Shown in pieces: positions 5,810 through 36,483 of a stretch of DNA of 37,567 nt. How positions within the stretch are numbered: the stretch's first letter is position 1; every line of letters starts with the position of its first letter. The stretch comes from a virus. The stretch spans positions 1-37,567 of the IMG/VR virus record IMGVR_UViG_3300044491_002565; one strand, 5' to 3'. The notes under the pieces were generated by a model, which made no database searches, was not told where the DNA came from, and saw only the letters and a program-made list of their open reading frames with translations. Position numbers and translations under genes: made by a program.

Positions 5810-6018
5810 TGGATTTCTCTCCAGCACCCAACAAGAACTATGAAGAACAGCGCTTTGATCACTTGGCGGAATGCGTGGATGAATACCTTGGAGGAACAGG
5901 AAATGAAATGGGCATTGATTTCTTCATTCGCGATTTAAAGAAAGCTTGCCTCGATCTTTCTTCATATCACCGTAAAGTGCTGGATGACTGCACCACATTT
6001 GCGGACTACCTGCCGTGA
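5806..6018 (+). CDS. Small conserved-looking hypothetical protein, 70 aa
   Basis: ATG 5806 overlaps the upstream stop, and the frame ends at 6018 inside the GTGA that starts thyX. The product is acidic and mostly helical: NYEEQRFDHLAECVDEYLGG, then GIDFFIRDLKKACLDLSSYHRKVLDD. It looks like the short acidic proteins often found beside phage nucleotide-metabolism genes, but I cannot assign a family. Tight overlap on both sides supports a real, co-translated gene. A role as a small adaptor or regulator of the neighbouring enzyme is only a guess. Confidence 0.65.
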   Translation: MMDFSPAPNKNYEEQRFDHLAECVDEYLGGTGNEMGIDFFIRDLKKACLDLSSYHRKVLDDCTTFADYLP

Positions 6019-6728
6019 CTGACTTCTCCATCCATGATCCCCTTAACGATGGCATCAGCTCTCTACGGCTGCTTGACTACATGGGAAGTTCAATTGACAT
6101 CGTTAACGATGCAAGGCAGAGCTTTGACACTGAAAGCCCAGAGTTCACCTCGCGGGATCAGAAGCTTCTCAATTACTTGGTCAAGCACAAGCACACCTCT
6201 CCTTTCCGAGGCGTCGTCTTTAAGTGGCAAGTAAAGGCTCCGCTGTTTGTTGCAAGACAATGGTGGAAGCATGTGATTGGCGGCACCTATGCCAACGACC
6301 AGCTCGGCTGGAATGAAAAGAGCTTCCGCTATTGCGTGGCTGATGACGAGCAGTTCTACATGCCCAATGTCTTCAGGGAGCAGAGCGAAAGCAACAAGCA
6401 AGCCTCTAAGGGGCCTTTAAGAGGCCGTGCTCAGGCTTTGGCTGAGGCTGCCTATGGAGACGCCCTGGAGGTGATGAAAGACGCTTACAAGACGCTCCTA
6501 GCTGCTGGCGTGAGCAAAGAGCAAGCTCGGGGCATTCTCCCCACTTGTCACTACACATCTTTCGTGTGGACTTGCAGCCTTCAGGCCCTGCTGCATTTTC
6601 TTAGTCTGCGCCTTCCCCCTGACTCTCAATGGGAAATCCGTGCCTATGCCGACCATCTGGCAGAGATTGCTGAGCCTATTGTTCCGGAAGCTTTCGACGC
6701 CTTCTACGCCAATGACAAGTCATTTTGA
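6015..6728 (+). CDS. thyX: FAD-dependent thymidylate synthase ThyX
   Basis: The product is 237 aa from GTG 6015. ThyX methylates dUMP to dTMP using methylene-tetrahydrofolate, FAD and NADPH, supplying dTTP for phage replication. Family features are present: HTSPFRGVVFKWQVKAPLFVARQWWKH (60-86), WNEKSFRY (99-106), and the C-terminal LPTCHYTSFVWT, LLHFLSLRLPPDSQWEIRAYAD and PEAFDAF. The normal signature RHRxxSxNExSxRY is altered here: it reads KHV at 85-87, with about eight extra residues before N-E-x-S-x-R-Y. Key C-terminal positions (S-Q-W-E-I-R) are intact, so it is probably functional. It overlaps the gene before it (GTGA) and the HNH gene after it by 17 bases. Confidence 0.85.
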   Translation: MTDFSIHDPLNDGISSLRLLDYMGSSIDIVNDARQSFDTESPEFTSRDQKLLNYLVKHKHTSPFRGVVFKWQVKAPLFVARQWWKHVIGGTYANDQLGWNEKSFRYCVADDEQFYMPNVFREQSESNKQASKGPLRGRAQALAEAAYGDALEVMKDAYKTLLAAGVSKEQARGILPTCHYTSFVWTCSLQALLHFLSLRLPPDSQWEIRAYADHLAEIAEPIVPEAFDAFYANDKSF

Positions 6729-8459: not shown

Positions 8460-9542
8460 ATGGTCGCCAATAGCTGGAACGGCGTAAGCCTCTGCGCATC
8501 TCGCGTGGGGGCTAAATTTCCGCAGCTTGTTGCTGCGCAATGGGCATTGGAAAGTGGCTATGGAAAGCATTTTTCCGGCACTTGGAATGCCTTCGGATTG
8601 AAAGGCGCTGGATCAGTAAAGGAAACCAAGGAGTTCCTTGATGGTCAATGGGTGACAATCAAAGACGGTTTCATTGACTTCCCCACCCTTGAAGCTTCTA
8701 TTGAATATCTAGTCTCTCGTTGGTACAAAGATTGGGGCGGATATAAAGGTGTGAACAATACGGCGTCCGAAGAGGAAGCTGCTCAAATGTTGCAAAGCGA
8801 GGGGTATGCCACTGATCCTGAATACCCTCAAAAACTCATTCGACTCATGAAGGAAAACACCAAGCGTCGCCCTATCAAGCTCACTAGCGCGGCTAAGTAT
8901 TTCCGTGGAGAAAGTCATCAAATTGCAGCTTGGAACTACTTAGAAGATCGTCTCACTTCATCCGAGCTTGACGAATTTGCCCTCCTTTATCGATCAGGCC
9001 CTGATCCGCAAATACTCACCCCTAAAAATCCCTTAGACGTTCCTTACTTCAGCCAACGCGACAACTTGTCCGGAACTGGTTATAGGGAGTGTTTCAGCAG
9101 TTCCTGCGCGATGCTGGCAGCCTTCTATGGACGAGTGACCAGTGATGATGAGTACAACACTATCCGTCAACGCTATGGCGATACCACATCTAGCCATGCT
9201 CACGTTGAGGCTTTGCGCTCACTTGGACTAAAGACACGTTTCTCGACAGAAGTTACGGAAAAGATGCTTATTGATGAACTTAGAAACGGCAAGCCAGTGG
9301 CAGTTGGCTGGCTTCACCACGGCGCGTATAACGAGCCCACGGGCGGTGGACATTGGAGCGTAGTGATTGGTAACACGGACGAAGATTTCATTCACCATGA
9401 CCCATTCGGCGAAGCTGATATGGTCAACGGCTCCTATCTCAATGCTGGTGGAGGTCAAAACGTGCGCTACAGCAAGCGTTGCTGGATTCCACGATGGAGA
9501 GTAGGCGGGTCCGGAGGTTGGGCCATCTTTGCTTCACCGTGA
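8460..9542 (+). CDS. Two-domain endolysin: glucosaminidase-type muramidase plus C39-like cysteine peptidase
   Basis: The product is 360 aa. Residues about 10-140 fit the mannosyl-glycoprotein endo-beta-N-acetylglucosaminidase (LYZ2/FlgJ-like) fold: FPQLVAAQWALESGYGKHFSG with catalytic Glu31, NAFGLKG, then FIDFPTLEASIEYLVSRWY and YATDPEYPQKLIRLM. After a helical linker (145-180) comes a papain-like C39-family peptidase: VPYFSQRDN, GYRECFSSSCAMLAAFYG with Cys211 as likely nucleophile, GGGHWSVVIG with His298, and HHDPFGE with Asp314. The protein should cut both the glycan and the peptide part of peptidoglycan. It closes the lysis cassette and overlaps the next gene by GTGA. Lysis is on the strand opposite to the tail genes. 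Confidence 0.85.
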   Translation: MVANSWNGVSLCASRVGAKFPQLVAAQWALESGYGKHFSGTWNAFGLKGAGSVKETKEFLDGQWVTIKDGFIDFPTLEASIEYLVSRWYKDWGGYKGVNNTASEEEAAQMLQSEGYATDPEYPQKLIRLMKENTKRRPIKLTSAAKYFRGESHQIAAWNYLEDRLTSSELDEFALLYRSGPDPQILTPKNPLDVPYFSQRDNLSGTGYRECFSSSCAMLAAFYGRVTSDDEYNTIRQRYGDTTSSHAHVEALRSLGLKTRFSTEVTEKMLIDELRNGKPVAVGWLHHGAYNEPTGGGHWSVVIGNTDEDFIHHDPFGEADMVNGSYLNAGGGQNVRYSKRCWIPRWRVGGSGGWAIFASP

Positions 9543-11785: not shown

Positions 11786-12379
11786 TTAGCTCACGTTCGC
11801 CAATACAGCAGCCGAAATACGCGTGGTGCTATCACAGTAATAAGCAAGAATGTCAGTAGCTGAAACCGTAATTGTTGGAGCAGTGCCGTCCTTAAATTTC
11901 CAATATGAGCCAAACGCCAAAGTATGACTTCCGCCATTGGTGATAACAATTACGCCGCTTTGACCTGCTGCAATGTTTGTAGGATTTGCAAGGGTTCTAT
12001 TGCCGCCGATGTTTAAAGCAAAGTTGTTGCCAGCGCTGAAATCGGGCGTGATGGTAGCCCCATCGGTCAACGTGACAACCGTGCCTCTCTGAGCAGCAGA
12101 ATAGCTTTGAGCCTCATTCAAGCGAGCAACAGTAGTATCAATATTTAAAGTGACATCAGCACTCAACGTTCCGCCGCCACTTAGACCACTTCCAGCTACA
12201 ACTTGACGACTTGAAGTGACAATTTCTGAATAACGAGCCAGACGAGTGCCACCCGCTGTTGATCCATCATGAACACGAGCAGTGTTCAAAGAAGTGTCAA
12301 CAGTGATTTCTCCAATAGCTCCTGTAAAAGAACTGTGCTCACTTGTTGTTCCGCGACGAAGTTGAACCTGCTTGGCCAT
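11786..12379 (-). CDS. Fibre-tip protein with tropism-determinant-like N-terminus and shared C-terminal domain
   Basis: The product is 197 aa. The N-terminus (MAKQVQLRRGTTSEHSSF, then GAIGEITVDTSLNTARVHDG) is the short repeat found at the start of many phage fibre and head-decoration proteins. Residues about 63-85 are Gly/Ser-rich (VAGSGLSGGGTLSADVTL). The last 110 residues (RGTVVTLTDGATITPDFSAGNNF onward, ending AAVLANVS) match the C-terminal domain of the 693-aa fibre at 18022-20103, which ends TAQLLTNVS. It is probably a receptor-facing trimerising domain. It may be a distal fibre segment or decoration. Confidence 0.65.
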   Translation of the reverse strand: MAKQVQLRRGTTSEHSSFTGAIGEITVDTSLNTARVHDGSTAGGTRLARYSEIVTSSRQVVAGSGLSGGGTLSADVTLNIDTTVARLNEAQSYSAAQRGTVVTLTDGATITPDFSAGNNFALNIGGNRTLANPTNIAAGQSGVIVITNGGSHTLAFGSYWKFKDGTAPTITVSATDILAYYCDSTTRISAAVLANVS

Positions 12380-14841: not shown

Positions 14842-17800
14842 TTAACGAGCAAGCCCGCCATTAGCCTGGAACGGGTTTTCAGCAAAGGCGGCGTAGATGT
14901 AGGTTTGAGTGTTGAGGTTCTTGCCGCTACCAGCACCTCTAATCTTGAAGCCGTTTGAAAGGATGTCTACACCTACGCCAGTGCCAAGGTTGTAACTACC
15001 TTCTGCATCAGACAGGTCTGCTGCAAGATTATTGTCCCTAGCTGTATCAATTATTTCCCAAAAGGTGTAATTATTGTCCGTACTACTACACTTAAAAATG
15101 ATCCATCTCGGCCTAAACCCGGTAAACACAAACGGACCATCAGTAGATCCATTGCCGGTGTATGAACCAAATGCGCTATACCCTTCGACAGGTGCGAAGC
15201 AGTAACTAATACATTCCTGGCTACTGCCATACAAATAGTTTGAATTAAAATTAAACGTTGTTGATGTTGCAGCCGTGTTATTAAAAGCACTTGTATCAGT
15301 ACCTACCGCCACAGTTGTATTAAGTCTCTGGTAATTAGCTGCAGGATTAGAATAAACATGACCTTGTGTCCACCAAATACCAGACCCAAGGGTTTTAGTG
15401 ATCACAAATGATGGAACAGCATTAAGTCCATGTCCTACACTTCCACTACCAATGGTTGCTTTTACAATCGAGAACCCAGCACTTGGGTTGGCTCTTACTT
15501 GTGAAGTAATGCTGCCGTCGTTGTTAGTTACCGTCGATGTTCCGGCGTCCCATGCCCATGCTGCGTAGGTCGTGCCACTTTTATTTTGCTCATTTCCATC
15601 GTTTGTTATATCAAAACCATCACTTTCAAAATCTAATACAGTAAAATTACTTTCTGCAGCGGTCGAATTTGAGTTTAATTGTTTATCTCCACGAACAATA
15701 TCTACAAGGCGATGCTGTAGCGTTTCGCTGCGACCTTTCAACCACACAAAGTCTGGACTAAAAGAATAATTAACAGACGTAGTGCCACCATTACCTGTAT
15801 ACAGCTTCGTATCAAAATATTTACTGCCATCCGCAATCGTTGGCTCAGGTAAGTTTGCGGTGTTTAATGACTTGTAGCCAGCCGGAGCTGCCGTATGGAA
15901 GGCACGTTGGCCAAAGTTAACGCTTACGTTTGTCAAACCATTCCTAAAAATTGGGAAGTATGTTCCTGCAGGAATAGAAGTAAAAGCAGTACCCGCAGAT
16001 ACTCCATCGTCATAATAAGTTAGCGTTCCATTGTCTGCATCAAAAGCACAGCCAACAACAGAGCCAGCAGCGAAAGAATGAAAACTACTTGCTGCGCTAT
16101 TATTATATTTGTTAGCATTATCGACTGCGTAACTGTCAGACGCTTGGCCAGGGTACTGAGAACCGTTTGGCGTAGCCGCTACCCCAGTCATTGTCCCATT
16201 ATCAGGGTATGTAGTCTCCCAGTAATACTTGCCGGAACTAATTCCGATCGTTCCGTAAAGTGATGAGTACGCAGTGAACCCATTCATGTCAAGATTGCCG
16301 TTGCTTAGCGTAGTCGTTGCAGCGGTAATTAAAGGATTCAACGTCGCATAGTTGCCAACAATTGATCCGCCGGGATCACCGCCACTCGATGCAGTGCCGT
16401 TGGTTGGGGAGTCTACGAGGGAGTCGATAGTAGCCCCAAGTGGATCACTGGCGCCGGGATTAACTAAGAGTTTGCCGTCAACCTCAATACCTTGAAAATA
16501 AGCATTTGATGCTCTCACTTCAATGGTAGTTAATGTAGTGTCGCCAGATAATTGAGAAGTAATATCAAGCGGAGCAAGAGAATTGGTTGAAGTCGGCCAA
16601 CCAGTTATAGACCTATTATTAACAAGAATTTGATTAGCTCCAGAAACTGCTGCGCCATATACAACTACAGTTTTTCCGCTAATATCAAGTGCAGAACTTA
16701 GAGTAAGTACAGAGGCTGAGCCATTGTTACCCCATAAGTTACTGCCACTAATAGTACCACTGAACGCTTTGTTAGCTGTATATGTTGAATTTTCATTAGT
16801 AACACTAGAACTCCACGTCTGACTTTGATTCCAGTTGCTGCCTGCCGCAACTAAGTTATTAACAGTCCACGTATTGCTGTTGCCACTTGTGTCCGTACCA
16901 AGCGCAGCGTTGCTGCTGTTGTCCGCAAAGTCGAGGTGGAAGGAGTTATCAGCAATACCAGTAATACCTGAATCAATGAGATATTTTCCATTTAATTCAA
17001 TAGCGTATAAGCCAATGAGATTGTTGCCATCAGTGCCAGTAATATTGATAGTTGAAAGAGAACTTACTCCAGTAATATTAGCGTGTGCAATTCCTGAAGA
17101 TTGAAGCTGACTTGTGACATCAACACCATTTACTAAGACAGTTCCACCAGTTCCATAAACCTGGCAATATAAACGAAGAGAGGTAACAGGCAAAGCACTT
17201 GGAAGCGTAAATGTTGCTCCGCTATAGCTCTGCATATAATTAGCCGTCGAAACTACACCATTATGAACAGCAACAAACGAACCATAGTTAGCTGTTCCAG
17301 TCCATAATGAAGACCATGTTTGACTTTGGTTGAACCAGCCATACGTTCCAGTAAATAACTTCGGTTGCCATACTCCGTTGTCATCAGGAGCTCCAAAATC
17401 TGTTGGTGCTAATGCTTGACCATCGATTAGCTGATACTCAGCAAGGTAAATATTTGAAGCTGAACCAATATTACCACTTGAATCAATAGAAGCACCTATA
17501 CAATGTAGTTGGTTATTGTTAACGCCAAACTGATGGTTTGGACCCGCGTCACTACCACCTCTAGAAATCTGTGCGCCGTTAACATACAACTTAACTCTAT
17601 CTGCTGCAGTTGATAGCGTAGTATCTACAGAAATAACAAAGTGATACCATGCACTTGGATCTCTAAATACATCCGTTGTTTGAATATAGTATGTAGACCA
17701 GTCTGACATTTGAAAAGTGCCAACTGCAGTAAATCTTATGTCTAAATAATTTCCGCTAGCTCCACTACCGTAAGTAAAAAGTGGCCGATTTTCGATCGAT

Positions 17801-17985
17801 GCGTTGTATGGGTCTTTAATCCAAAAACTTAAAGTCCACGTCCTGCGGTTGCCCGCAGCACTTGGGGTTCTAGTTAAATTCGCACTATCTGCACTATTAA
17901 ACCGCAAGCTGCGGTCAATTTGATACGCCGCAGGCTCCGCAAGGGAAGCCATTAACAATGGATGCGCAGAGCCTGGAATGGTCAT
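14842..17985 (-). CDS. Large mosaic fibre: LamG, duplicated beta module, SPRY-like and DUF7483-like regions
   Basis: The product is 1047 aa. Residues about 25-205 resemble a LamG/concanavalin A lectin: RSLRFNSADSANL, TWTLSFWIK, WYHFVISVDT and VKLYVNGAQI. Next are two related modules (218-340 and 385-510), each with NQSQTWSS, a valine-rich strand pair, V(L)VN, D-(V/I)-T-S-Q-L, a T-I strand and I-E-(L/V)-x-G-K-x-L. Residues 575-700 look SPRY-like (GKYYWETTY, GCAFDADNGTLTYYDDG, YFPIF). The last 310 residues carry two related halves, each with W-(L/I)-x-(F)K, D-x-x-R-(G/D) and S-(D/N)-G-F-(D/K)-I, as in the DUF7483-type region of cyanophage structural proteins, ending ENPFQANGGLAR. It is likely a host-surface-binding fibre with several carbohydrate-binding folds. 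Confidence 0.75.
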   Translation of the reverse strand: MTIPGSAHPLLMASLAEPAAYQIDRSLRFNSADSANLTRTPSAAGNRRTWTLSFWIKDPYNASIENRPLFTYGSGASGNYLDIRFTAVGTFQMSDWSTYYIQTTDVFRDPSAWYHFVISVDTTLSTAADRVKLYVNGAQISRGGSDAGPNHQFGVNNNQLHCIGASIDSSGNIGSASNIYLAEYQLIDGQALAPTDFGAPDDNGVWQPKLFTGTYGWFNQSQTWSSLWTGTANYGSFVAVHNGVVSTANYMQSYSGATFTLPSALPVTSLRLYCQVYGTGGTVLVNGVDVTSQLQSSGIAHANITGVSSLSTINITGTDGNNLIGLYAIELNGKYLIDSGITGIADNSFHLDFADNSSNAALGTDTSGNSNTWTVNNLVAAGSNWNQSQTWSSSVTNENSTYTANKAFSGTISGSNLWGNNGSASVLTLSSALDISGKTVVVYGAAVSGANQILVNNRSITGWPTSTNSLAPLDITSQLSGDTTLTTIEVRASNAYFQGIEVDGKLLVNPGASDPLGATIDSLVDSPTNGTASSGGDPGGSIVGNYATLNPLITAATTTLSNGNLDMNGFTAYSSLYGTIGISSGKYYWETTYPDNGTMTGVAATPNGSQYPGQASDSYAVDNANKYNNSAASSFHSFAAGSVVGCAFDADNGTLTYYDDGVSAGTAFTSIPAGTYFPIFRNGLTNVSVNFGQRAFHTAAPAGYKSLNTANLPEPTIADGSKYFDTKLYTGNGGTTSVNYSFSPDFVWLKGRSETLQHRLVDIVRGDKQLNSNSTAAESNFTVLDFESDGFDITNDGNEQNKSGTTYAAWAWDAGTSTVTNNDGSITSQVRANPSAGFSIVKATIGSGSVGHGLNAVPSFVITKTLGSGIWWTQGHVYSNPAANYQRLNTTVAVGTDTSAFNNTAATSTTFNFNSNYLYGSSQECISYCFAPVEGYSAFGSYTGNGSTDGPFVFTGFRPRWIIFKCSSTDNNYTFWEIIDTARDNNLAADLSDAEGSYNLGTGVGVDILSNGFKIRGAGSGKNLNTQTYIYAAFAENPFQANGGLAR

Positions 17986-26470: not shown

Positions 26471-26866
26471 TTAAATAATCAAGAAAAGAAGGCGTTGTGT
26501 TCTTAAAGAGCGACCATCAGGAAGCATTGCAACATTCGCTGAAGAAAAGTCAAACCTCAAGGGAGATGCGACCAGTGTATCGCTCTCTGCATAGGAAGAT
26601 TGCCTGTCATCCAAGCCGATTGTAGCAATGCGAATTTTATAAGAAGTGGAGATTCTGTATTCATCAGTTGGCAAGGGCATGTATGTATCTGTTGTCGTGC
26701 CCAGGTCAACTGTTCTCTGATCCTCCTGCTTAAACATCTGCACCTTGAAGCTTTTAATGGCTGGATGCCGGTGCGGGTCTTGCCAACACAGCAGCGGATT
26801 TATGACATTCAAGATTGAATACGAACTATATTTAGGGGCCTCCCAACTTGCTTCCACTCTTGGCAT
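26471..26866 (-). CDS. FN3-like tail-tip protein separate from the J-like protein
   Basis: The product is 131 aa. It reads as one fibronectin type III-like domain: PRVEASWEAPKYSS, PLLCWQDPHRHPAIKSFKVQMF with the conserved W, then DTYMPLP, YKIRIATIGLDDRQSSYAESDTL. These are the usual FN3 strands, including the Y-x-I-R-x-A-T-I-G-x-D motif. Lambda J and its relatives carry such FN3 domains inside the J chain after the tail hub region; here it is a separate gene translated right after the J-like gene (1-base overlap). It was probably split from or never fused to J. The C-terminal 25 residues are not FN3. Confidence 0.65.
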   Translation of the reverse strand: MPRVEASWEAPKYSSYSILNVINPLLCWQDPHRHPAIKSFKVQMFKQEDQRTVDLGTTTDTYMPLPTDEYRISTSYKIRIATIGLDDRQSSYAESDTLVASPLRFDFSSANVAMLPDGRSLRTQRLLFLII

Positions 26867-28836
26867 TAGCTCGTCCTCAACACAATTGACCCTTTGAAAA
26901 CTGTAGGAGCGACTTTCACGCCAGCAACGCTTTTAATTTGAGCATCGAAAAATGTATCAACATCAACGCTGTTGTATTTGTCTTCGTTATAAGCAGTTGC
27001 GTTAATGGTAACCGTGCCGTCCTCTAACTCCATGATGCCCATTACGCGATATTTACGAGGCTTAGCTCCTCCCACTTCTTTGACAATAAACAACTCCCCC
27101 GCTGCAGGAACTACGCCAAATCCGCTGGTTACGACAATTGCATTGCTCGCGATGGACTGAACAGTGTTGACGGGTTTTGTTTCCGTGCGAATCGTCACCT
27201 CGTAACTTTTTCCGCCGACAAATGCTGGCAACTTATCTACCTTTACATTGGTAGAAGTTGACCCTTCTTGAACAACGCCTGCGAAAACCTGAGCTGTTTT
27301 AGCTTCGTCCACCACTTCGATAATTTCACCAGGCATCATGAAGAAGCCTTGAGCTGTCACGCGAAAAGTAACCGTCTCTTTCTCGGTCAAATTCGTAACC
27401 AAAGCCCACCGTCCCATGCGCTGTGCTTGCCCCTGCGAAGTACATCCAAATGCCCTTACCTCCAGCTCTCTGTATCCATATAGATCAATTCCTCTTCTGT
27501 CTTCCACGTATTCAAGCTTTGTTCTATAACGATCGTCAGGGTCATTCCATGAAACCAGCGCAACCGTTTTCCTAGCTTTACGCCCTGTCCCCTCGTAAGA
27601 GAATGGAGGAGTTGTGACATTCCCATTGTCATCCACCTCTTGAATGACATTGGAAGCACTAAATTTCTTGACAACGCTTCCCGGCCTGTCTTGTGTTGGC
27701 ACAACCGTGCCATTTGCGTAATACAACATACCCCTAAAGGCTGCAGCAATTGAATTCAGCACCTCATAAGCCTCTCCCCTGTTATTGATATAGCCATTAA
27801 AAGTAAAGCGAGGCTCTTTCCCTCCCCTTCCATCGTTCACTTCTTCGTCGCAATACTTTGCAATCTCGTACAGTGCAAACTTGTCAACTTGATCGGCATC
27901 AATAAATTGACCACAGCCGTACCTTTCGTTTGTAATTAAGTCATAAAACACCCAAGCTGGATTGTTGGAATATCTAGTTTTGAAGGCGCCATTCCAGGTG
28001 CCCACATAATTGCGTGTTCTCGTGTTGTAATTTTCTGGCACTTGAATTAGCAGCCCCTCCAAATCAACACTGAGTCTTGGGATTTGATTGAAACCTTCCG
28101 AGTCAAGAACTACACCTACCAAAGCCGTCCCTGGATATTTGAAACTTTCATCTAGTACGCCAACGATTGCCTTGAAGAAGAAGTCGCTAGCGTCCGTTGC
28201 GCTTTCTGCGTCGTCCGTTTCTCTAGTAACTCTTACTGTCCAAGGGCCTGTTCCACTTAAACCATATTTGTGTTCCGTGTCGAACGCGCTTCTCGTTTTG
28301 CCTTCAATTACTTCGTTTTGACTTGATATTTGAGTGCCGTTGTTGTCAAGGATGCGAATGTTGTATTTAACCTTGCTTCCAGAAATGTCTCCATTGTCAT
28401 CGTCCACTTGGTACAGTGCGCCTACGCCTACTCGCACGATAACTTCATCAAGATTGACAGTAGAGGTTGTCACCGAAACTCCACCTCCTCTCTTTGTTAC
28501 CTTCACACCAACGGTCTGTTCAATCAGTACATCCTTGAATCCCTTCAATGCGTCTTGGATTAACGTTCCATTTGTTGAGACAATGTCAACATTCCCGTCG
28601 AAATTTTTAACTCCATTCGGCTCTTCAATGGGAGTGTCATTTAAGTAAACGCTTTTCTCATCGGCTTCCGCAAAACCTTCGATTTCTCCTTCACACAATG
28701 CAATCAGCACACGAGCTGTGGCCTTACTAAATAGATCATCATCCTCTTCTTTTGGCTTGCGATCGCCACCGCTTTTTCCTCCGCCGCCACTACCTGACAG
28801 CTCTAAACGCTTGTTCTCGTCATCAAAATCAGGCAT
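26866..28836 (-). CDS. Tail tip hub / host-specificity protein, lambda J-like
   Basis: The product is 656 aa from ATG 28836; a TTG at 28842 gives 2 more residues and would overlap the previous stop. The N-terminus is a Gly/Lys-rich tether (SGSGGGGKSGGDRKPKEEDD) followed by the J marker DLFSKATARVLIALCEGEIEGF and SVYLNDTPIEEPNGV. The middle has the tail hub regions (TRNYVGTWNGAFKTRYSNNPAWVFYDLITNERYGCG, IAKYCDEEVNDG, EVDDNGNVTTPPFSYEGTGRKARKTVALVSWNDP). It stops after the hub; lambda J (1132 aa) continues into FN3 and receptor-binding domains. The FN3 part is encoded next (26471-26866), and receptor binding presumably falls to the separate fibres. The shortness is real: the stop is followed by the next start. 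Confidence 0.8.
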   Translation of the reverse strand: MPDFDDENKRLELSGSGGGGKSGGDRKPKEEDDDLFSKATARVLIALCEGEIEGFAEADEKSVYLNDTPIEEPNGVKNFDGNVDIVSTNGTLIQDALKGFKDVLIEQTVGVKVTKRGGGVSVTTSTVNLDEVIVRVGVGALYQVDDDNGDISGSKVKYNIRILDNNGTQISSQNEVIEGKTRSAFDTEHKYGLSGTGPWTVRVTRETDDAESATDASDFFFKAIVGVLDESFKYPGTALVGVVLDSEGFNQIPRLSVDLEGLLIQVPENYNTRTRNYVGTWNGAFKTRYSNNPAWVFYDLITNERYGCGQFIDADQVDKFALYEIAKYCDEEVNDGRGGKEPRFTFNGYINNRGEAYEVLNSIAAAFRGMLYYANGTVVPTQDRPGSVVKKFSASNVIQEVDDNGNVTTPPFSYEGTGRKARKTVALVSWNDPDDRYRTKLEYVEDRRGIDLYGYRELEVRAFGCTSQGQAQRMGRWALVTNLTEKETVTFRVTAQGFFMMPGEIIEVVDEAKTAQVFAGVVQEGSTSTNVKVDKLPAFVGGKSYEVTIRTETKPVNTVQSIASNAIVVTSGFGVVPAAGELFIVKEVGGAKPRKYRVMGIMELEDGTVTINATAYNEDKYNSVDVDTFFDAQIKSVAGVKVAPTVFKGSIVLRTS

Positions 28837-28838
28837 GA

Positions 28839-29477
28839 TCAAGAGTTAATCTGCTCAGTGCTAATAGCGGAGGAAACAACTAAAGGCGCTTGGCAAAGGA
28901 ATCGTCCATACAACAATGGGATTGGGTAGCCCTGTGTTGTAAGCTCAGCGGCTCTGTCAAACATAAAGCTCTCCCCTTTAGCGCTGTCTCCACCGGGAGG
29001 CTCCACTGGAGGAGCAAGTAAGGACGAGATGCCGCCCAAAACCAAGCTCACGCCCAGTCCAAACATCAGAGAGCCCATAGTCGTGAATGCCATTGTTCCG
29101 CCCAAAATACCCTGGCCAGCAGCAACCGCTGAAAAGGCGTTAATACCAGGAATAAACATCATGCCAATTAACGCGGCTCCTAAAAGAATTCTCCCGGCAC
29201 CGCCACCAGATCCAGCGAGAATAGGAGCAATGATCAAGCGATCACAACTCATCATCACTTCTTCGTAATCCATGCCTTCTGGATCACTGGAAACTAGCTT
29301 GAAGCCCATGGCCTTCTCGTGAGCTGTGTATAGATATTCCTTAAAGCCTTCAATTTGATACGACAAGGCGCTGATCACTTCTTTTGCGTTTTTAACGTAA
29401 AACACATAGCTGCGACCAAACCGCCGCCCCAGCTCTCCTAGCAACTTCACCTCAACTCGTCTTTCAGCAGTCATCAC
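28839..29477 (-). CDS. Tail assembly protein, lambda I-like
   Basis: The product is 212 aa. Residues about 5-80 (VEVKLLGELGRRFGRSYVFYVKNAKEVISALSYQIEGFKEYL) look like the ubiquitin-like beta-grasp fold of the lambda I family. Two hydrophobic glycine-rich helices follow (RILLGAALIGMMFIPGINAF, TMGSLMFGLGVSLVLGGISSLL), then the conserved P-rich hinge (LAPPVEPPGG) and a C-terminal segment YPIPLLYGRFLCQAPLV. Lambda I acts with K, L and J to build the tail tip. It overlaps the K-like gene by four bases and precedes the J-like gene, exactly as in lambda. Confidence 0.8.
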   Translation of the reverse strand: MMTAERRVEVKLLGELGRRFGRSYVFYVKNAKEVISALSYQIEGFKEYLYTAHEKAMGFKLVSSDPEGMDYEEVMMSCDRLIIAPILAGSGGGAGRILLGAALIGMMFIPGINAFSAVAAGQGILGGTMAFTTMGSLMFGLGVSLVLGGISSLLAPPVEPPGGDSAKGESFMFDRAAELTTQGYPIPLLYGRFLCQAPLVVSSAISTEQINS

Positions 29478-30178
29478 AGCAAGCTCTCGTGTCGCAGGAC
29501 TCTTGTGGTGTACTTAGACCAAGACTGGCCCCAGACAGTCTTTTCGGACTGCCTGTCCATTAGATGATGATAGAAGCAATTTTGCTCTGCCAAGAACACG
29601 CCAGCATGATTGGGTGATGGTGCAACAATGTTCATCAGCAGAAAGTCTCCAGTCTTCGCCGGCTTGTCAATCTCTACAAAGCCTTGAGAGGCGTAATTGT
29701 CCACAAACATCGTCCAACTACTGCTTTCCCATTCGCCTTCCTCGCCACGCTCAAAGTCATCAAGCTCAATCCCTAATTCGCGCTTGTAAAAATCACACAT
29801 AAGGCTATAACAATCGTGAATACCATACGTCCAATCGCGTCCTATATAGGGCGCTTCCCCCGTTGGATCTGCATAACGAAAATTGCCCGTCTGTTTTGTA
29901 AATAAAAGCCAAGGTAAATTGCTATGTCTGCACACGTTTACATCATGCAAAGAAAACTTTTCGTTTCCATTGATGTGCGAATGATACACGCACTGAATTT
30001 CTCCTAATGCATCTACTCGCGCATAATCTTCAGCCGCGATCAAAAATTCAACAGCAGGATTGTCAGCTCTATTTTCGCAAGGAAATATCTCATCATTGAT
30101 GACAAACCCACATGCCTCTTCGTCGCCCCTTATCAAGCAATCGTGAGCAACGGCCTTTTTAACTTTCTCGTCAATCAT
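29474..30178 (-). CDS. Tail tip peptidase, lambda K-like (JAMM plus NlpC/P60)
   Basis: The product is 234 aa. The N-terminal half is a JAMM/Mov34 metallopeptidase: EEACGF (20-25) with the catalytic Glu, and YHSH, then S and D (His66, His68, Ser76, Asp79; H-x-H-x7-S-x2-D). The C-terminal half is an NlpC/P60 cysteine hydrolase: GIHDCYSLMCDFY (119-131) with Cys123, and PNHAGVF with His191. Lambda K has the same two-domain layout and helps the tail tip mature or pierce peptidoglycan. All key residues for both domains seem present. It overlaps the L-like and I-like genes by four bases, supporting co-translation. Confidence 0.88.
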   Translation of the reverse strand: MIDEKVKKAVAHDCLIRGDEEACGFVINDEIFPCENRADNPAVEFLIAAEDYARVDALGEIQCVYHSHINGNEKFSLHDVNVCRHSNLPWLLFTKQTGNFRYADPTGEAPYIGRDWTYGIHDCYSLMCDFYKRELGIELDDFERGEEGEWESSSWTMFVDNYASQGFVEIDKPAKTGDFLLMNIVAPSPNHAGVFLAEQNCFYHHLMDRQSEKTVWGQSWSKYTTRVLRHESLL

Positions 30179-31623
30179 CTTGAAAGGTTTGCTCCAGGGA
30201 ATCCACCAAACGGTAACTGCCTATCAAACCGAAGCTTGCAACTCGACACTTGTTTTCCGCAAACGTCCCCGTTATACAAGGAGCTGCCTGAAGACAAAGC
30301 CGCTGCTGCCGCTTGTGTTGCATCCCTTGCTGCAATAAATGCCGCTGACTTGGCGTCTTTTACTGCTTGAGCCGCGTTGAATTCAGCAGTAGCTGTCGCG
30401 CAAGCGGATGAATCAAGGCGATCCACTTGATACACAGGATATATTTCTGTGGTGGTTTTTGAACCTAGGCGATACTCCCCATCAGTAGTAAGTGTCACTT
30501 CTTGCCCTTCGTAAACAGCGAAAAACACATCTGTATTGCTGTTGAATTCGTTCGGGTTTACGGCAAAAGTCGCAGCGTTCTTGCTGCTTACGTCTACTTT
30601 CTCAACTAGCTGACGAATGTACTGTCCAGGCACAAACGCGCTCTGTTGCCATTTCTGCACAGCATAAAGCTCTCCAGTGCCATAACTGTTATAAGGAGTG
30701 GTCATTCTTTTGCTATCTCTCCTATAAGCGGTGCCATCTTGACTTGTGACGTTGTTACCTTCCCAGATGATCATCACGGTTTCATTGCCTTCCTGTCCAT
30801 TGGTGAAATTAGGAAGTGCGAAGTACATATCACTTGCCTTGCTTTCTACAAAGCCGCCTTTAGTTTCAACGGAAGCTGTATTTGCCGAGCAGGCGTTGTC
30901 TTTTGCTGTCCGCTTAGTCGCCAAATCAGCCTGCGCTATGTTCAGTTCCCTCAACGCTATTTTGCGAACTTTCCGTGCGTCATTGTAAGCATCATCAAGA
31001 GCATCGCCCGTATTGGCAAGATCATTATTGAAAGCATCGGCTACGGGAGGCCCGTTATAACCACACTCTGCTCCCCTGTACTTCCAGACACAATAGTTTT
31101 GCGTAATAATTCTCTTTGGAAGCTGCAGTCCTTCAAGGTCAAGAGGACTCGCGAGTGCAAATGTGATAGACATGTTGTCTTCACGCACTTTTCTCTCGAT
31201 ATAGAAAATATCACTAGGAAAGTAGCTGTTTAGGTTTTCAGAAGATTGGCCAACAAGATGCTTGAACAGCGTCCTTCTGCGCACAATTCTCGCACCAATC
31301 AAATCGTCCAAATCTTCAATTAACTCAGACCATGCTCCGAAAATATTAGAAACAGTTAGTTCTGGAGTGGGGATTTGCCCTTTTGTCGTGCGCTCAAAGC
31401 TAGTCGCAGCAATGGGCAAAGGTTCATAGATGACGGTAAAAGTGCTGCTTACATCGTCATTTCTTCGCCATTTGATCTTGCTGCCATCCGGCAGCACTTG
31501 GTTCGTGAAAAAGTAGCGCTCTTGACTTGCTGTGTCTACTGCTTCAAGATCGCGCAGATCAAGCTCAAAAAGCTCGATAACGCTGTCGTAATAACCAAGT
31601 TTTACATCATCTTCAAGAGCCAT
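30175..31623 (-). CDS. Minor tail protein, lambda L-like, with a large insertion
   Basis: The product is 482 aa, about twice lambda L (232 aa). Residues 10-175 match the L N-terminal part (VIELFELDLRDL, FFTNQ, LVGQSS, ASPLDLEGLQLPKRI). The L-type cysteines of the Fe-S site come in two pairs: Cys178 and Cys187 (NYCVWKYRGAECGYNG), and Cys455 and Cys462 (NGDVCGKQVSSCKLRF), followed by the family ending LPFGGFPG. In lambda the two pairs are close; here some 267 residues lie between them, including a coiled coil (201-245), a beta-rich domain (255-400), a second helix rich in Ala, and two more cysteines (245 and 408). The insertion may be a tail-tip appendage. It overlaps the K-like gene (ATGA). 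Confidence 0.8.
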   Translation of the reverse strand: MALEDDVKLGYYDSVIELFELDLRDLEAVDTASQERYFFTNQVLPDGSKIKWRRNDDVSSTFTVIYEPLPIAATSFERTTKGQIPTPELTVSNIFGAWSELIEDLDDLIGARIVRRRTLFKHLVGQSSENLNSYFPSDIFYIERKVREDNMSITFALASPLDLEGLQLPKRIITQNYCVWKYRGAECGYNGPPVADAFNNDLANTGDALDDAYNDARKVRKIALRELNIAQADLATKRTAKDNACSANTASVETKGGFVESKASDMYFALPNFTNGQEGNETVMIIWEGNNVTSQDGTAYRRDSKRMTTPYNSYGTGELYAVQKWQQSAFVPGQYIRQLVEKVDVSSKNAATFAVNPNEFNSNTDVFFAVYEGQEVTLTTDGEYRLGSKTTTEIYPVYQVDRLDSSACATATAEFNAAQAVKDAKSAAFIAARDATQAAAAALSSGSSLYNGDVCGKQVSSCKLRFDRQLPFGGFPGANLSR

Positions 31624-31629
31624 GATCGA

Positions 31630-32007
31630 TTAACTCCGAGAATCGTAAACACGTCGCACCGTGAACGAGATTCTATTACTGTTTGGCCCTAGTGTCTCCC
31701 AAGTCCACTGATTCGGTTCTAGGCGATATTTGTGAAGTGCAGTGTCTCTCGGAAATTGAGCATAAAAGAAATCGCCGTCTAGATCTTCAAAGAAATCGTC
31801 GTAAGAAGTGGCCTCCGCGTCAGTGATCGGCCTAGTTTTTAATGAGTAGGTGCGCATATCCGTCTGAATACCATCAGGCGTCACTTGCTCATAGCCATTT
31901 CCCAGTGAAAATCGACGCACACGCCGCGAACGAACAACCGACGTGCCATATTCAAAAACGCTCTCAGAAGTGGTGCCAGTAGCGCTAAATAAGGTAGGTT
32001 GTGCCAT
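31630..32007 (-). CDS. Minor tail protein, lambda M-like
   Basis: The product is 125 aa. It follows the Phage_min_tail pattern: RRVRRFSLGNGYEQVTPDGIQTDMRTYSLKTRPI, with R-R-x-x-L/F-G-x-G-Y-x-Q and D-G-I-x-T, then ATSYDDFFEDLDGDFFYAQFPRD and IS-FTVRRVYD. Lambda M sits between tape measure and L and helps complete the tail tip. The position, just after the tape measure gene and before L, agrees. The first 20 residues are a variable N-terminus. Nothing unusual is seen. Confidence 0.8.
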   Translation of the reverse strand: MAQPTLFSATGTTSESVFEYGTSVVRSRRVRRFSLGNGYEQVTPDGIQTDMRTYSLKTRPITDAEATSYDDFFEDLDGDFFYAQFPRDTALHKYRLEPNQWTWETLGPNSNRISFTVRRVYDSRS

Positions 32008-32011
32008 CTAC

Positions 32012-35000
32012 TTATCTCCGAGAGGCGATCATGCCGCCAGGACGCATTTCCCGCATAATAACGTCTTTAACTGCACCCTCAATGCCTTTTGCTAGTTGAT
32101 TTCCTTGTGATCCCTTAGTTGTGGAATCAGAGCTGCCGTCATTGTTGATGTTGACAACAACGCTGCTATTAACACCGCCGCCCATTCCTTTGCCCATCTC
32201 CACGGGGATCTTCTTGCCGTCAGGCAGCGGCACCACTGCTTCGTTGTAACGGCCTTCGCCAACAAGACCAAGCGTGGGGCCTTTGACAATACCGCCATTG
32301 GCAAATGGAGTGAAACCTCCCTGCCATACAGCGCCGTTAGCTGCTGTTTGACCAATAATTGACGCCAGAGGGCTGGCACTCTGAGTTGCTCCGGCTCCAG
32401 GGAACAAGGCGTTCATGAATTGCATCATTGCCCACTTGGCCAGCATCTGAGCAACCATGTCAGCAAACATCTTGGAGACATTGCTAAACAGATTGCCCAT
32501 AGCGTCTCTGAAAGAAGATGCTCCAGTGATGATGCTGCTGAATGCTCCGCTCAGGTGCCCCTCAATACCTGAAGCGGCTTGCACTGCCATGCCCTCAACA
32601 TCTTTCAAATCATCTTTAGCGCTGTTGACGTAATCCCTAATGCTGCCAGCAGGAGCGAATCCTTCCTTTTCTTTCCCTTGGAAACGAGCAAAAGCTGCGA
32701 TTTGCTCTTCAGTTGGATTCAACTTTAAGAACGCCTCACGAGCTTCAACTTGCCCTTGCAGGAACTGCTCAGTCTCGGCTTCCCTCGCTGACATCTCGCC
32801 GGAAGCAACCTTCGCTTCCAAAAGGGTGTTTTTAATTTGCTTGCGACGCTCTGTCTCTTCCGTAAAGCCTTGCGCAAGCCTCTTGCCGTTTTCAATAGCA
32901 AATGTTGCCTCATCAATGGCAAGTTGATTTGCAGCTTTCTCTAATGCGATCTTCTTCTCAGTGGTGAGCATGTCGCGCTCATTGATCTGCGCCACGTCCA
33001 GGGCATATTGAGTACGCATGAGCTGCAGCTCATTGCCAGTGTTGTCTTGACGGGCAATAGCAAGCTTGATGCGCATCACTTCACGCTCAGCAGCAGCAAC
33101 GCCTAAGGCCATGTCCTTGCGCTTATTTCCGGCACCGCCGCCACCAGTGGTCTTTGGCACTGGAGTGGTGCTCAGGCCGGCACCCTCTCCTCCGAAGGTG
33201 TAGCTCTTGTCGCCCTTGACAGATCCAGTGGTGCGATCAACCGCTAGCTGAGTGGGATCTTCGCCAGCAGTAACAGCGTCTGCAAGGGCCTTCTCTCGAT
33301 TTTTCTGCAGACCCTTGATTTGATGCTTGAGTGAATCTTCCGCTGCTTTTCTTTGGAATGGATTAACGATAAATTGATCGCTTTCTTTTTTTTGCGTCTT
33401 GACTGTAAGTTCTTGCTGTTTGGCCACGATTTGAGCCTCTAAGCCAACAGCCTTGGCCGTGTATTCACCAGCGCTCTTCAGTCCAAACATCTCACGCATG
33501 CCGTCAATCACTGGAGCCAAGAATCCAGCAATTTGATTCATCAAGTCGGCGACAAATCTGCCAAAGTCAGCAAGGCGACGGATGACAATTTGAAGGTCAC
33601 GAACAAACGTATCGATGCCTTCTTTGTTGTTTTTAACGAAGTCACTGAGGCCGCCCATCATGTCGGCAAACACCTGCTGAACTTCCGAACCCAGGGGTGC
33701 AAATGCTTCGCCTACATCACGATTGAGCTGATCCATCGCGATGGCAGCACGACGAGCCGCATACTCAGGCGCAGTCGCCATCTTGTCGGCAAACTCTTCG
33801 TAATCCTCAAAGTTCTGCTTCGCAAAGTTGACGAACTGCTCTACGCCAACTTCGCCCTTCTGCAGTGCTTTCTGCAGCTCAGCCATGCTCATCTTGTTCG
33901 CCTTAGCGAACTTGACCACGGCTCCTGGAAAACGCTCCCCGAGTTGGCCTCTCAGCTCCTCGGCCTGCACAGTGCCCTTGGAGAAGATTTGAACAACGGC
34001 CCGCATTGCGCCGTCAATGTCTTCCATTGAGCCGCCAGTTGCAGCCACTGCCAGGGCCGTACCTTCCAGAATCTCCTGCGTATCTTTTGCAGACATTCCG
34101 AACTGCTTGGTGTTAACGCGGAGCTGAGCAAAGTGTTTGTAAGTCTTCTCCAACGGCATTAACAGCCGCTTGCTACTTTCCTCTACAAGCTGGTTGGAAT
34201 TGGCAAAATCAGCAGCATCAACAGAAGCCATGGCTAAGCCACGCTTCATCCGCTCAACAGCGTTAAAAGCCTCAACAGACCTTGCTGCCATCGCGCCAAG
34301 CTGATCTGCAGCTTGACCCACGCCAGCACCAACAAAGCCGCCCATCGGGCCGGCAATTGCCATGCCGATGCCGCTGCCAATCATGGCGCCAGGACCGCCG
34401 CCAGCCAGAGCTGAAGCACCTAAGCCGGCTGCGCCACGACCAAGCGCTCCTGCAGCACCTTTGGCCATTCCCATGGCTCTTGCAGTGCGAGGAATGCGCT
34501 TTTTCTCCATGCGCGTCATCGCCTCTTCAGACTGACGCAGGTTTCGCTGGAGACGTTTCCAAGCTTCTGTATCAGGCTTGATACGAGCAGCCTTATCTTT
34601 CAGCGAATCAATCTTGATTTCCAGTGCTCGCATTGAGCCTGGATCGATCAAAGGTCCGCTACGACGAGCGCCTACAAAGGCGCGGTTTGCTGGACTACCA
34701 GCTTGTCCAACTGTCCCACGAATGGGGCTTGCTACATCAGGAATGGCGCCCCTGGCGCCCATTCCCATGCGGAAATTAGCAATCGCCCGCTGCTGTGCTT
34801 CTCCAGCTTTCTTGTAAGCACGCGCAAGACTCTCGACGCTTTTCTGCGTCTCGTACATCTCACGACGCTGATTCTTGACAGCGTTCGTGACCGATTTAAG
34901 GTCTTTCTCAAAGCTATATAGCTTCTCGCCAGCTTTGATAAAGTCTTTTGTTCCTTCTTCTGCTTCGTGAAATCTCTTGCGAAGCTCAGCTACCTCTTTC

Positions 35001-35071
35001 TTGAGCTGCGCAATAGTCTTACCGGCATTTCCGGTAACTTCAAACTTAATCCGCATTCCTGCATCAGCCAT
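32012..35071 (-). CDS. Tape measure protein
   Basis: The product is 1019 aa. Start ATG 35071 has GAGG 5 bases upstream. Residues about 5-130 are coiled coil (KKEVAELRKRFHEAEEGTKDFI). A Gly/Ala-rich hydrophobic zone lies at about 195-255 (MAKGAAGALGRGAAGLGASALAGG). Next is the tape-measure N-terminal domain (about 265-440; SKGTVQAEELRGQLGERFPGAVVKFAKANKMSM). Long helices follow to about 900. The end (ANGGIVKGPTLGLVGEGRYNEAVVPLPDGKKIPVEMG, SVVVNINNDG) is the standard C-terminal motif. It sets tail length; 1019 aa, at about 1.5 A per residue, predicts a tail near 150 nm. It follows the chaperone pair and a small gene, as in other siphophages. Confidence 0.9.
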   Translation of the reverse strand: MADAGMRIKFEVTGNAGKTIAQLKKEVAELRKRFHEAEEGTKDFIKAGEKLYSFEKDLKSVTNAVKNQRREMYETQKSVESLARAYKKAGEAQQRAIANFRMGMGARGAIPDVASPIRGTVGQAGSPANRAFVGARRSGPLIDPGSMRALEIKIDSLKDKAARIKPDTEAWKRLQRNLRQSEEAMTRMEKKRIPRTARAMGMAKGAAGALGRGAAGLGASALAGGGPGAMIGSGIGMAIAGPMGGFVGAGVGQAADQLGAMAARSVEAFNAVERMKRGLAMASVDAADFANSNQLVEESSKRLLMPLEKTYKHFAQLRVNTKQFGMSAKDTQEILEGTALAVAATGGSMEDIDGAMRAVVQIFSKGTVQAEELRGQLGERFPGAVVKFAKANKMSMAELQKALQKGEVGVEQFVNFAKQNFEDYEEFADKMATAPEYAARRAAIAMDQLNRDVGEAFAPLGSEVQQVFADMMGGLSDFVKNNKEGIDTFVRDLQIVIRRLADFGRFVADLMNQIAGFLAPVIDGMREMFGLKSAGEYTAKAVGLEAQIVAKQQELTVKTQKKESDQFIVNPFQRKAAEDSLKHQIKGLQKNREKALADAVTAGEDPTQLAVDRTTGSVKGDKSYTFGGEGAGLSTTPVPKTTGGGGAGNKRKDMALGVAAAEREVMRIKLAIARQDNTGNELQLMRTQYALDVAQINERDMLTTEKKIALEKAANQLAIDEATFAIENGKRLAQGFTEETERRKQIKNTLLEAKVASGEMSAREAETEQFLQGQVEAREAFLKLNPTEEQIAAFARFQGKEKEGFAPAGSIRDYVNSAKDDLKDVEGMAVQAASGIEGHLSGAFSSIITGASSFRDAMGNLFSNVSKMFADMVAQMLAKWAMMQFMNALFPGAGATQSASPLASIIGQTAANGAVWQGGFTPFANGGIVKGPTLGLVGEGRYNEAVVPLPDGKKIPVEMGKGMGGGVNSSVVVNINNDGSSDSTTKGSQGNQLAKGIEGAVKDVIMREMRPGGMIASRR

Positions 35072-35074
35072 TCC

Positions 35075-35503
35075 TTACCTCAACTCCTTGGCTAACAGGG
35101 CGGATAAAACAGATTCAAGTTCTCTAATCGTAGCTTCAGTCCATGGGCGAGCAGATACGCTCTTGCCTCTCTGACCGCCACGAGTTTTAGGTGTGTAGCC
35201 ATCATGCACATAAGCGGCATACACTTCTCCTCGACCACCAGTCCATTCAAAGACGGTGTAGTTCACCCCGTTTTCACGACGCTGGCTTCTTTTTAAGTTG
35301 CCAAGGTCAACGAGATCACGCGCTTGTCCCGGCGGAATGATTTGACCATTTCGCCTTATCGTCAACGTGTCCAAATTCCACATTTGACGGTCAAACTGGT
35401 CCTGAAAATCGTTCTCAGCCCAGTCCATAGCTTGCTTAAACACCCGTGCCGGCATCTCTCCAAGCTCTATAAGTTTGCGCGTTAAATTGTCCTGAATTGG
35501 CAC
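35075..35503 (-). CDS. HK97 gp10-like small tail protein
   Basis: The product is 142 aa from GTG 35503, with no clear Shine-Dalgarno; upstream the frame is open only to the stop of the T-like gene. The pattern KLIELGEMPARVFKQAMDWAENDFQDQFDRQ, GNLKRSQ, then TGGRGEVYAAYVHDGY, RPWTEATI and LESVLSALLAKEL fits the HK97 gp10/lambda Z-type family: an N-terminal helix, a loop region, a conserved YAAYVHxGY and a C-terminal helix. Such proteins normally sit at the head-tail junction upstream of the tail tube gene. Here it lies between chaperone and tape measure, an unusual place. A stop codon and 48 bases separate it from the T-like frame; both are in the same reading frame. Confidence 0.6.
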   Translation of the reverse strand: MPIQDNLTRKLIELGEMPARVFKQAMDWAENDFQDQFDRQMWNLDTLTIRRNGQIIPPGQARDLVDLGNLKRSQRRENGVNYTVFEWTGGRGEVYAAYVHDGYTPKTRGGQRGKSVSARPWTEATIRELESVLSALLAKELR

Positions 35504-35551: not shown

Positions 35552-35974
35552 CTAACTCTTAAGTTCTGCCGCCAACATTGCAACAATGGTTGGAGGAAGT
35601 TTCTGAGTGCGTAAAGCCCAGCGAACCACCTCTTCCGTTTCTGATGTGATTGACGTTGCAGAACGTGGTGTTTCAAAAGGCAGAAAGTCTGCAATCTTCG
35701 CCTTATTGCTAGCGCCGCCTCCCAAGGCGCTCAGTACAACCATGCCGAGTTTTGCAGTGGCAACACTATGGGAGTTAATGATTTGCTGCTGTTCGTTGTC
35801 CGCTGTCTTGATCAGCTTTTTCAGCAGCACAATCGGCACCTTCCCAAACCGCTCCGCATGAAACATCGGATCGGACAATGAGAGGGTGGCTACGCGGCAA
35901 TAAACTTGATACCAGTCTGTGACGTTGTTAATTGCGTCGTCACAGGTGGCTTGCAGCCGCTCTAGGAAGCTTTC
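35552..35974 (-). CDS. T-like tail chaperone part, reached by -1 frameshift from the G-like gene
   Basis: This part has 140 residues in the -1 frame, starting right after the slippery CCCAAAG and staying open to the TAG at 35552. The fused G-T product would be about 310 aa (G residues 1-170 plus 140). It reads ESFLERLQATCDDAINN, then MFHAERFGKVPIVLLKKLIKTADNEQQQIINSHS and LPPTIVAMLAAELK, helical throughout, as in other T regions. Most siphophages make a small amount of G-T for tape-measure packing. A start within the frame (TTG 35878 or ATG 35866) would give a 108- or 104-aa stand-alone protein, which is less likely given the tight slip site. It precedes the gp10-like and tape measure genes. 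Confidence 0.75.
   Translation of the reverse strand, partial: ESFLERLQATCDDAINNVTDWYQVYCRVATLSLSDPMFHAERFGKVPIVLLKKLIKTADNEQQQIINSHSVATAKLGMVVLSALGGGASNKAKIADFLPFETPRSATSITSETEEVVRWALRTQKLPPTIVAMLAAELKS
35917..35945 (-). promoter_or_regulatory. Inverted repeat downstream of the frameshift site
   Basis: CTGTGACG, loop of 13, CGTCACAG is a perfect 8-bp inverted repeat starting 28 bases beyond the end of the slippery heptamer. Usual frameshift-stimulating structures begin 5-9 bases away, so its role is uncertain; a longer pseudoknot or none may operate. Confidence 0.35.
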
Positions 35975-36483
35975 TTTGGGGCTTCAGTGTCTTCCTCCAC
36001 TGGCTCTAGAGGCTCGTCTTCGGAAGCCATGAACTCTTCGATCAAAGCCAGCATTGCCTTGGGAAGCATGCGCGTGTCTTCATCGCTCCATTCATCAGTG
36101 GGTTCCCACTTCTTGTCCACCTTCACTTGACCACGATTGCGGAAGAACAGCGTCACCAGCTCTTCAAACTGCTCTCTTCCAGAAGGCATCAATGCCATCA
36201 GCTCATCAATCTCAGTTGCATACTGCTCAAAGATTTCAGAACGAGCTTCATTGGCCTGTTGAAGCACGTCAAAGGCTTTTTCTTCGGAGATTTCCTGCTC
36301 TTTCGCGATTTTCCGCGCCAAATCCACCGCTTTCAAGCTGAACGATGCTCGTTGACGAGCTTGCTCTTCTTTGGTCCAACCTTCCTCTGCAAGCCAGCTT
36401 CCAAACTTGCGCAAGCGCAGTTTGTCGCCAATCATCATGTAATCGGCCTTGCCGAGAAGGAAAAACTCCGAATACTTACTCAT
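35962..36483 (-). CDS. Tail assembly chaperone, G-like
   Basis: The product is 173 aa. It is helical and acidic: YSEFFLLGKADYMMIGDKLRLRKFGSWL, then FSLKAVDLARKIAKEQEISEEKAFDVLQQANEARSEIFEQ, MPSGREQFEELVTLFFRNRG, MLPKAMLALIEEFMASEDEP and an acidic tail VEEDTEAPKKAS. The size, charge and gene order (after tail tube and two small genes, before the tape measure) fit the lambda G class, which keeps the tape measure protein soluble during tail assembly. The slip heptamer lies at codons for P169-K170 near the C-terminus, as in lambda (GGGAAAG). The downstream T frame is reached from there. Confidence 0.75.
   Translation of the reverse strand: MSKYSEFFLLGKADYMMIGDKLRLRKFGSWLAEEGWTKEEQARQRASFSLKAVDLARKIAKEQEISEEKAFDVLQQANEARSEIFEQYATEIDELMALMPSGREQFEELVTLFFRNRGQVKVDKKWEPTDEWSDEDTRMLPKAMLALIEEFMASEDEPLEPVEEDTEAPKKAS
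35974..35980 (-). other. Programmed -1 frameshift site, CCCAAAG
   Basis: On the minus strand the G frame reads GCC CCA AAG, giving the heptamer C-CCA-AAG (X-XXY-YYZ). After a one-base slip the next codon is GAA and the frame stays open for 140 codons into the T-like region, while the normal frame stops 9 bases later at 35962. This matches the lambda G-T arrangement. Confidence 0.8.

Follow-up and report, generated by a model that had tools for sequence, protein, structure and literature searches.

Overlapping frames at the head of a tail module

The window (the whole stretch of DNA analysed here, a 37,567-base virus record) carries on its minus strand two overlapping frames, called G and T below, followed by a series of tail genes. 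The features are listed in the 5' to 3' direction of that strand.

35962..36483, minus strand: G frame, 173 aa, with ATG start, TAG stop and acidic C-terminus; predicted mixed alpha/beta
35994..35998, minus strand: GGAGG, internal Shine-Dalgarno-like core, 13 bases 5' of the heptamer
35974..35980, minus strand: slippery heptamer C_CCA_AAG (CCCAAAG), in the right phase for a -1 shift
35552..35974, minus strand: T frame that a -1 shift would open, with 140 codons before its stop; predicted to be all-helical
35938..35945, minus strand: left arm of an inverted repeat, CTGTGACG, 8 bp, conserved only in the close relatives L003-L005
35917..35924, minus strand: right arm of the repeat, CGTCACAG; in L004 and L005 one pair of the stem is G-U
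35075..35503, minus strand: 142-aa gene between T and the tape measure gene, weak match to tail completion/Neck1 families
32012..35071, minus strand: tape measure protein, 1019 aa (Pfam TMP_3, E 4.5e-24)
31630-32007, minus strand: M, minor tail protein (PF05939)
30175-31623, minus strand: L (PF05100)
29474-30178, minus strand: K-like protein by family matches, with JAB-type and NlpC/P60 domains joined
28839-29477, minus strand: I, placed by position only
26866-28842, minus strand: J-like tail tip protein, by similarity

The G frame ends in GAA GCC CCA AAG AAA GCT TCC TAG, with the TAG at 35964-35962, nine bases past the heptamer. Moved one base back at the heptamer, the reading becomes CCC AAA GAA AGC TTC and then stays open to 35552; the first T codon after the shift is GAA (35974-35972), and the fusion of G and T comes to 310 aa. 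Re-reading confirmed the coordinates and distances of the first-pass annotation, which had placed CCCAAAG in the correct phase nine bases before the G stop, and also its -1 frame of 140 open codons with a fusion of about 310 aa. A stop codon of the T frame lies one codon 5' of the heptamer, so that in the window this frame cannot be entered from farther upstream. The first-pass annotation had called CCCAAAG a less common heptamer than the GGGAAAG of phage lambda; it is not a poor site, since a review counts both C_CCA_AAG and G_GGA_AAG among the heptamers on which shifting is highly likely in E. coli (PMC5009743). In-phase heptamers of the form X_XXY_YYZ (Y = A or T) occur at 5 of 6973 codon positions in the minus-strand genes of the window, and one in the overlap, which offers roughly six codon positions, would be expected by chance in about 0.4% of cases.

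Apart from one extra gene, the module follows lambda in running from G and T through the tape measure gene to M, L, K, I and J, and the block from M to J spans 26866..32007 on the minus strand. AlphaFold gave models of fair confidence for both G and T (mean pLDDT 84 for each). G is modelled as a mixed alpha/beta protein with the slip site in its low-confidence C-terminus, and T as an all-helical protein with one long helix. Neither matched a chaperone family in Pfam or PHROG or any PDB sequence, and G had no fold match in the PDB; weak hits in one to four members, including PF11435 and phrog_337, were taken as chance. Known tail chaperone families are highly diverged, and similarity of sequence or fold is helpful in recognising them but not required. 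In BFVD, G matched A0A346A5Z9 and T, weakly, A0A346A600; that these accessions are adjacent may be a sign of a further G/T pair. As no known family was matched by G or T, their probable role as tail assembly chaperones is read from gene position and the G/GT layout.

Several other genes were seen in the window. A 1047-aa protein with SPRY and DUF7483 domains lies 3' of the tail genes (14842-17985), and the N-terminal domain of a major tropism determinant is found at 11786-12379 (Mtd_N, E 1.2e-11); neither the window nor the L003 record has a reverse transcriptase gene, so that nothing here points to a diversity-generating retroelement. In addition, 8460-9542 encodes a glucosaminidase domain and, after it, a C39-like cysteine peptidase domain, and a Thy1-type thymidylate synthase is encoded at 6015-6728.

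Conservation of the frame relation among relatives

Scans of IMG/VR yielded three close relatives (L003-L005, 95% identity) and many distant ones. After removal of identical sequences 129 were left, one of them the window; 121 of these are intact and two incomplete, and six fall outside both groups. Of the six, L063 and L067 end within T at a contig end; L113, L114 and L142 were set aside because indels break G itself; and L021 has a single frame. The 121 distinct intact sequences form 53 clusters, and a tree of the 53 cluster representatives divides the family into two strongly supported halves, that of the window and that of Synechococcus phage S-CBS4, the only isolate among the relatives (about 30% identical). 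A scan of GTDB genomes added one relative, L191 (NYTN01000090.1), on a contig from a metagenome-assembled bin labelled Rhodobiaceae; at 12,725 bases it is exactly as long as the IMG/VR record of L027, and it is most likely a phage contig wrongly binned.

In all 121 distinct intact sequences T lies in the -1 frame and the overlap holds at least one in-phase slippery heptamer, and the heptamer is therefore not due to chance. The first-pass annotation had proposed a search of relatives for the heptamer; what proved to be conserved is its presence and phase, while its letters vary. Counting the last heptamer before the stop, 96 sequences use AAAAAAA, 14 CCCAAAG, seven GGGAAAA and four AAAAAAC, and L189 has both AAAAAAA in the usual place and a later CCCAAAG. 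The heptamer type has changed at least five times on the tree, or at least four if L189 is counted as AAAAAAA, with the frame relation constant, so that the slip site varies in sequence but not in type or phase.

The gene order is kept as well. Among the relatives, what comes within 27-55 bases of T is either the tape measure gene itself or a single additional gene that precedes it; the tape measure gene lies one gene 3' of T in the window and directly 3' of it in the S-CBS4 clade. The intervening frame, of 142-177 aa, is present in all members of the window's half of the family and not in the S-CBS4 half. A tail completion-like gene between T and the tape measure gene is in an unusual place; HK97 has a moron there.

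T is under strong purifying selection. Between the window and L003-L005 its NG86 dN/dS is 0.054-0.060, nearly as low as that of G (0.039-0.045). Furthermore, four groups show a rise of synonymous codon identity at the junction. In the pair of 15-codon bins there it reaches 0.83-0.93 in the groups of L050 and L023 (means 0.68 and 0.79) and 0.80-0.86 in that of S-CBS4 (mean 0.58), and in the window's group it is 0.87-1.0 over the 45 codons past the slip (mean 0.77).

Fused frames in a relative had been named beforehand as evidence against the frameshift, and one case was found. At 4785-5735 of L021 the G and T domains lie in a single frame of 317 aa, on one contig. Compared with its relative L115 (about 81% identity), about 20 bases are missing just before the heptamer, which places the A7 run in the T frame; the genes adjoining the fused frame are open. 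If real, L021 would be a natural G-T fusion, from which a separate G could come only by a slip in the opposite direction. It is one unconfirmed contig compared with 121 intact sequences, and is no argument against frameshifting elsewhere.

These data also bear on other explanations of the frame break. Separate translation of T from an internal start, with an incidental heptamer, would accord with the GenBank entry of S-CBS4, in which gp033 is a separate 73-aa protein with an internal start, and the window does offer a TTG as first T-frame start, at codon 33. However, this TTG is not preceded by a Shine-Dalgarno sequence, the first possible start lies at a differing, unconserved place in each cluster (in 43 of the 53 the first ATG, GTG or TTG of the -1 frame comes at least 20 codons past the slip), the conserved T residues L15, T19 and W21 are upstream of most such starts, and the heptamer is conserved together with its phase; we regard this explanation as very improbable. 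Transcriptional slippage on an A run, which the AAAAAAA of most relatives might suggest, is scarcely credible given just three A's at the window's site and the use of CCCAAAG, GGGAAAA and AAAAAAC within the family. Runs of seven A's are short for slippage by bacterial polymerases. A sequencing or assembly error in what is really one frame has a negligible probability: indels do occur in the single contigs L113, L114 and L142, but the same break is found in 121 distinct sequences and in the isolate S-CBS4, and the relatives already refute it. Conservation of heptamer and frame, selection on T, synonymous conservation at the junction, the lack of a conserved T start and the lambda-like gene order together support the -1 frameshift joining a G-like and a T-like frame that the first-pass annotation had put forward.

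Signals on either side of the slip site

Upstream of the heptamer, a 5-base Shine-Dalgarno core is present at 7-24 bases in 47 of the 53 clusters, compared with 7.5% of other windows of equal length within G. Averaged by position, the energy of pairing with the 16S rRNA tail has a single sharp minimum at 9-10 bases, where it falls to -8.0 kcal/mol; the overall mean is -1.4. Internal Shine-Dalgarno sequences are known to stimulate -1 shifts at a spacing of 9-14 bases, as happens in dnaX and, by one estimate, in 56% of IS elements (PMC5009743), and the window's GGAGG, at 13 bases, lies within this range. When synonymous codons were shuffled, the mean strength over clusters fell from -10.4 to -6.5 kcal/mol, so that codon choice contributes to the signal. 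Singly, just 20 of the 53 clusters reached the 10% level, and the window alone is not significant, 63% of its shuffles being as strong; the signal can be set apart only in part from the coding of the glutamate-rich protein, which would favour such sequences anyway. It is improbable that the upstream sequence serves to start T, because most clusters have no T-frame start within 20 codons of the slip.

Downstream of the heptamer, the first-pass annotation had pointed to a perfect inverted repeat at an unusual distance. The repeat is real and begins 28 bases 3' of the heptamer as described, but as a family-wide stimulator it did not hold, being confined to the window and L003-L005 among the clusters looked at. 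Downstream structure in general was likewise rejected in that role, with a weak family mean z of -1.3 compared with -0.8 in a control stretch. In this virus itself, frameshifting might still depend mainly on the repeat or a larger hairpin rather than on the Shine-Dalgarno-like sequence. The 8-bp stem is kept in the window and its three close relatives, bases 5-60 downstream in the window give a z of -2.6, and no part of the alignment varies less than the 148 bases that start at the heptamer (7/148 variable positions, compared with 143/852, or 17%, elsewhere), which in four sequences only hints at an RNA element there. Given the stem's distance from the site, far from the usual position, its absence from the other clusters looked at and the weak family mean, we consider a hairpin as main stimulator unlikely. 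The repeat may add to frameshifting in this virus, but it is not the mechanism of the family, and it is much weaker evidence of frameshifting than the conserved heptamer. The stimulator shared by the family is likely to be the upstream Shine-Dalgarno-like sequence, which the first-pass annotation had not pointed out.

Proposed decoding and comparison with known systems

With high confidence, we propose that programmed -1 frameshifting yields G and GT tail assembly chaperones from one gene. Most ribosomes would read the 173-aa G and stop at its TAG. A smaller share, restrained while the 16S rRNA tail pairs with GGAGG, would slip one base back on C_CCA_AAG, with tRNA-Pro moving from CCA to CCC and tRNA-Lys from AAG to AAA, and would read 140 more codons, so making a GT fusion of 310 aa. 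If the proteins act as in lambda, G would coat the tape measure protein, the helical T part of GT would recruit tail tube subunits, and a fixed G:GT ratio would matter. The analysis shows how the site is built, that it is conserved, that T is under selection and that the upstream signal is enriched; that ribosomes slip here, how often they do so, that the upstream signal stimulates them and that the products are chaperones is inferred. The GT family is as yet outside the Pfam and PHROG libraries. We also think it somewhat probable that this is a large unannotated family of tail chaperones of aquatic viruses in which an internal Shine-Dalgarno sequence, not downstream structure, sets the frameshift, with turnover of the heptamer and at least one natural fusion.

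The arrangement resembles gpG/gpGT of lambda in its two overlapping frames 5' of the tape measure gene, its -1 shift at X_XXY_YYZ near the G stop and the downstream order H-M-L-K-I-J. In systems of the lambda type, GT is produced at a low and fixed ratio, is not part of the virion and is required to assemble the tail. In contrast to lambda, which slips on G_GGA_AAG, the window has an extra gene before the tape measure gene, and its G and T match none of the lambda families in Pfam or PHROGs. HK97 gp13/gp14, and likewise HK022, are also a -1 frameshift chaperone pair, and in HK97 a small gene, the moron gp15, lies between the pair and the tape measure gene; unlike them, the window's G and T have no sequence match to solved chaperone structures. 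In E. coli dnaX a slippery heptamer is combined with an upstream internal Shine-Dalgarno sequence at a spacing that stimulates -1 shifts (PMC5009743), but dnaX has a close downstream stem-loop and its shift makes the shorter product.

In a small comparison, lambda (best -2.5 kcal/mol), HK97 with its heptamer GGGAAAA (best -3.2 at 3 bases) and HK022 had no comparably strong Shine-Dalgarno-like sequence at 6-15 bases; the HK022 heptamer found lies 144 bases from the G stop as annotated. In TM4 strong pairing abuts the heptamer, which may not be its real slip site. Given the size of this comparison, the distance of the HK022 heptamer and the fact that PRFect already scores ribosome-binding motifs 5' of slip sites (PMC10885494), no novelty is claimed for Shine-Dalgarno stimulation in tail chaperones.

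The closest counterpart is gp032/gp033 of S-CBS4 (L002, NC_016766.1, 6001-6971), whose homology (about 30% identity) extends through the entire fusion; it too has T in the -1 frame, an in-phase A_AAA_AAA and GGAGG upstream. It differs in using AAAAAAA, 39 bases before the G stop, and its gp032-gp039 form the same series without the 142-aa gene. The frameshift is unannotated in S-CBS4: gp032 is called from an internal start, as 158 aa in a frame of 181, and the gp033 call, likewise from an internal start, takes in just the end of T, so that a correction of this annotation is suggested. S-CBS4 is also the nearest isolate to the window (54% identity in the tail tip, 63% in another structural protein), and a Synechococcus-like host is probable for this virus. 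Eleven long related contigs contain no psbA/psbD-type gene, and the cyanobacterial assignment thus rests on S-CBS4 and structural-protein similarity.

The locus would enlarge the G/GT chaperones by a family that goes unrecognised in both Pfam and PHROGs. With 53 lineages, four heptamers and a shared upstream signal, it may serve as a natural panel for the rules of Shine-Dalgarno-stimulated -1 frameshifting, and the same panel could be used to gauge the G:GT ratio that is tolerated.
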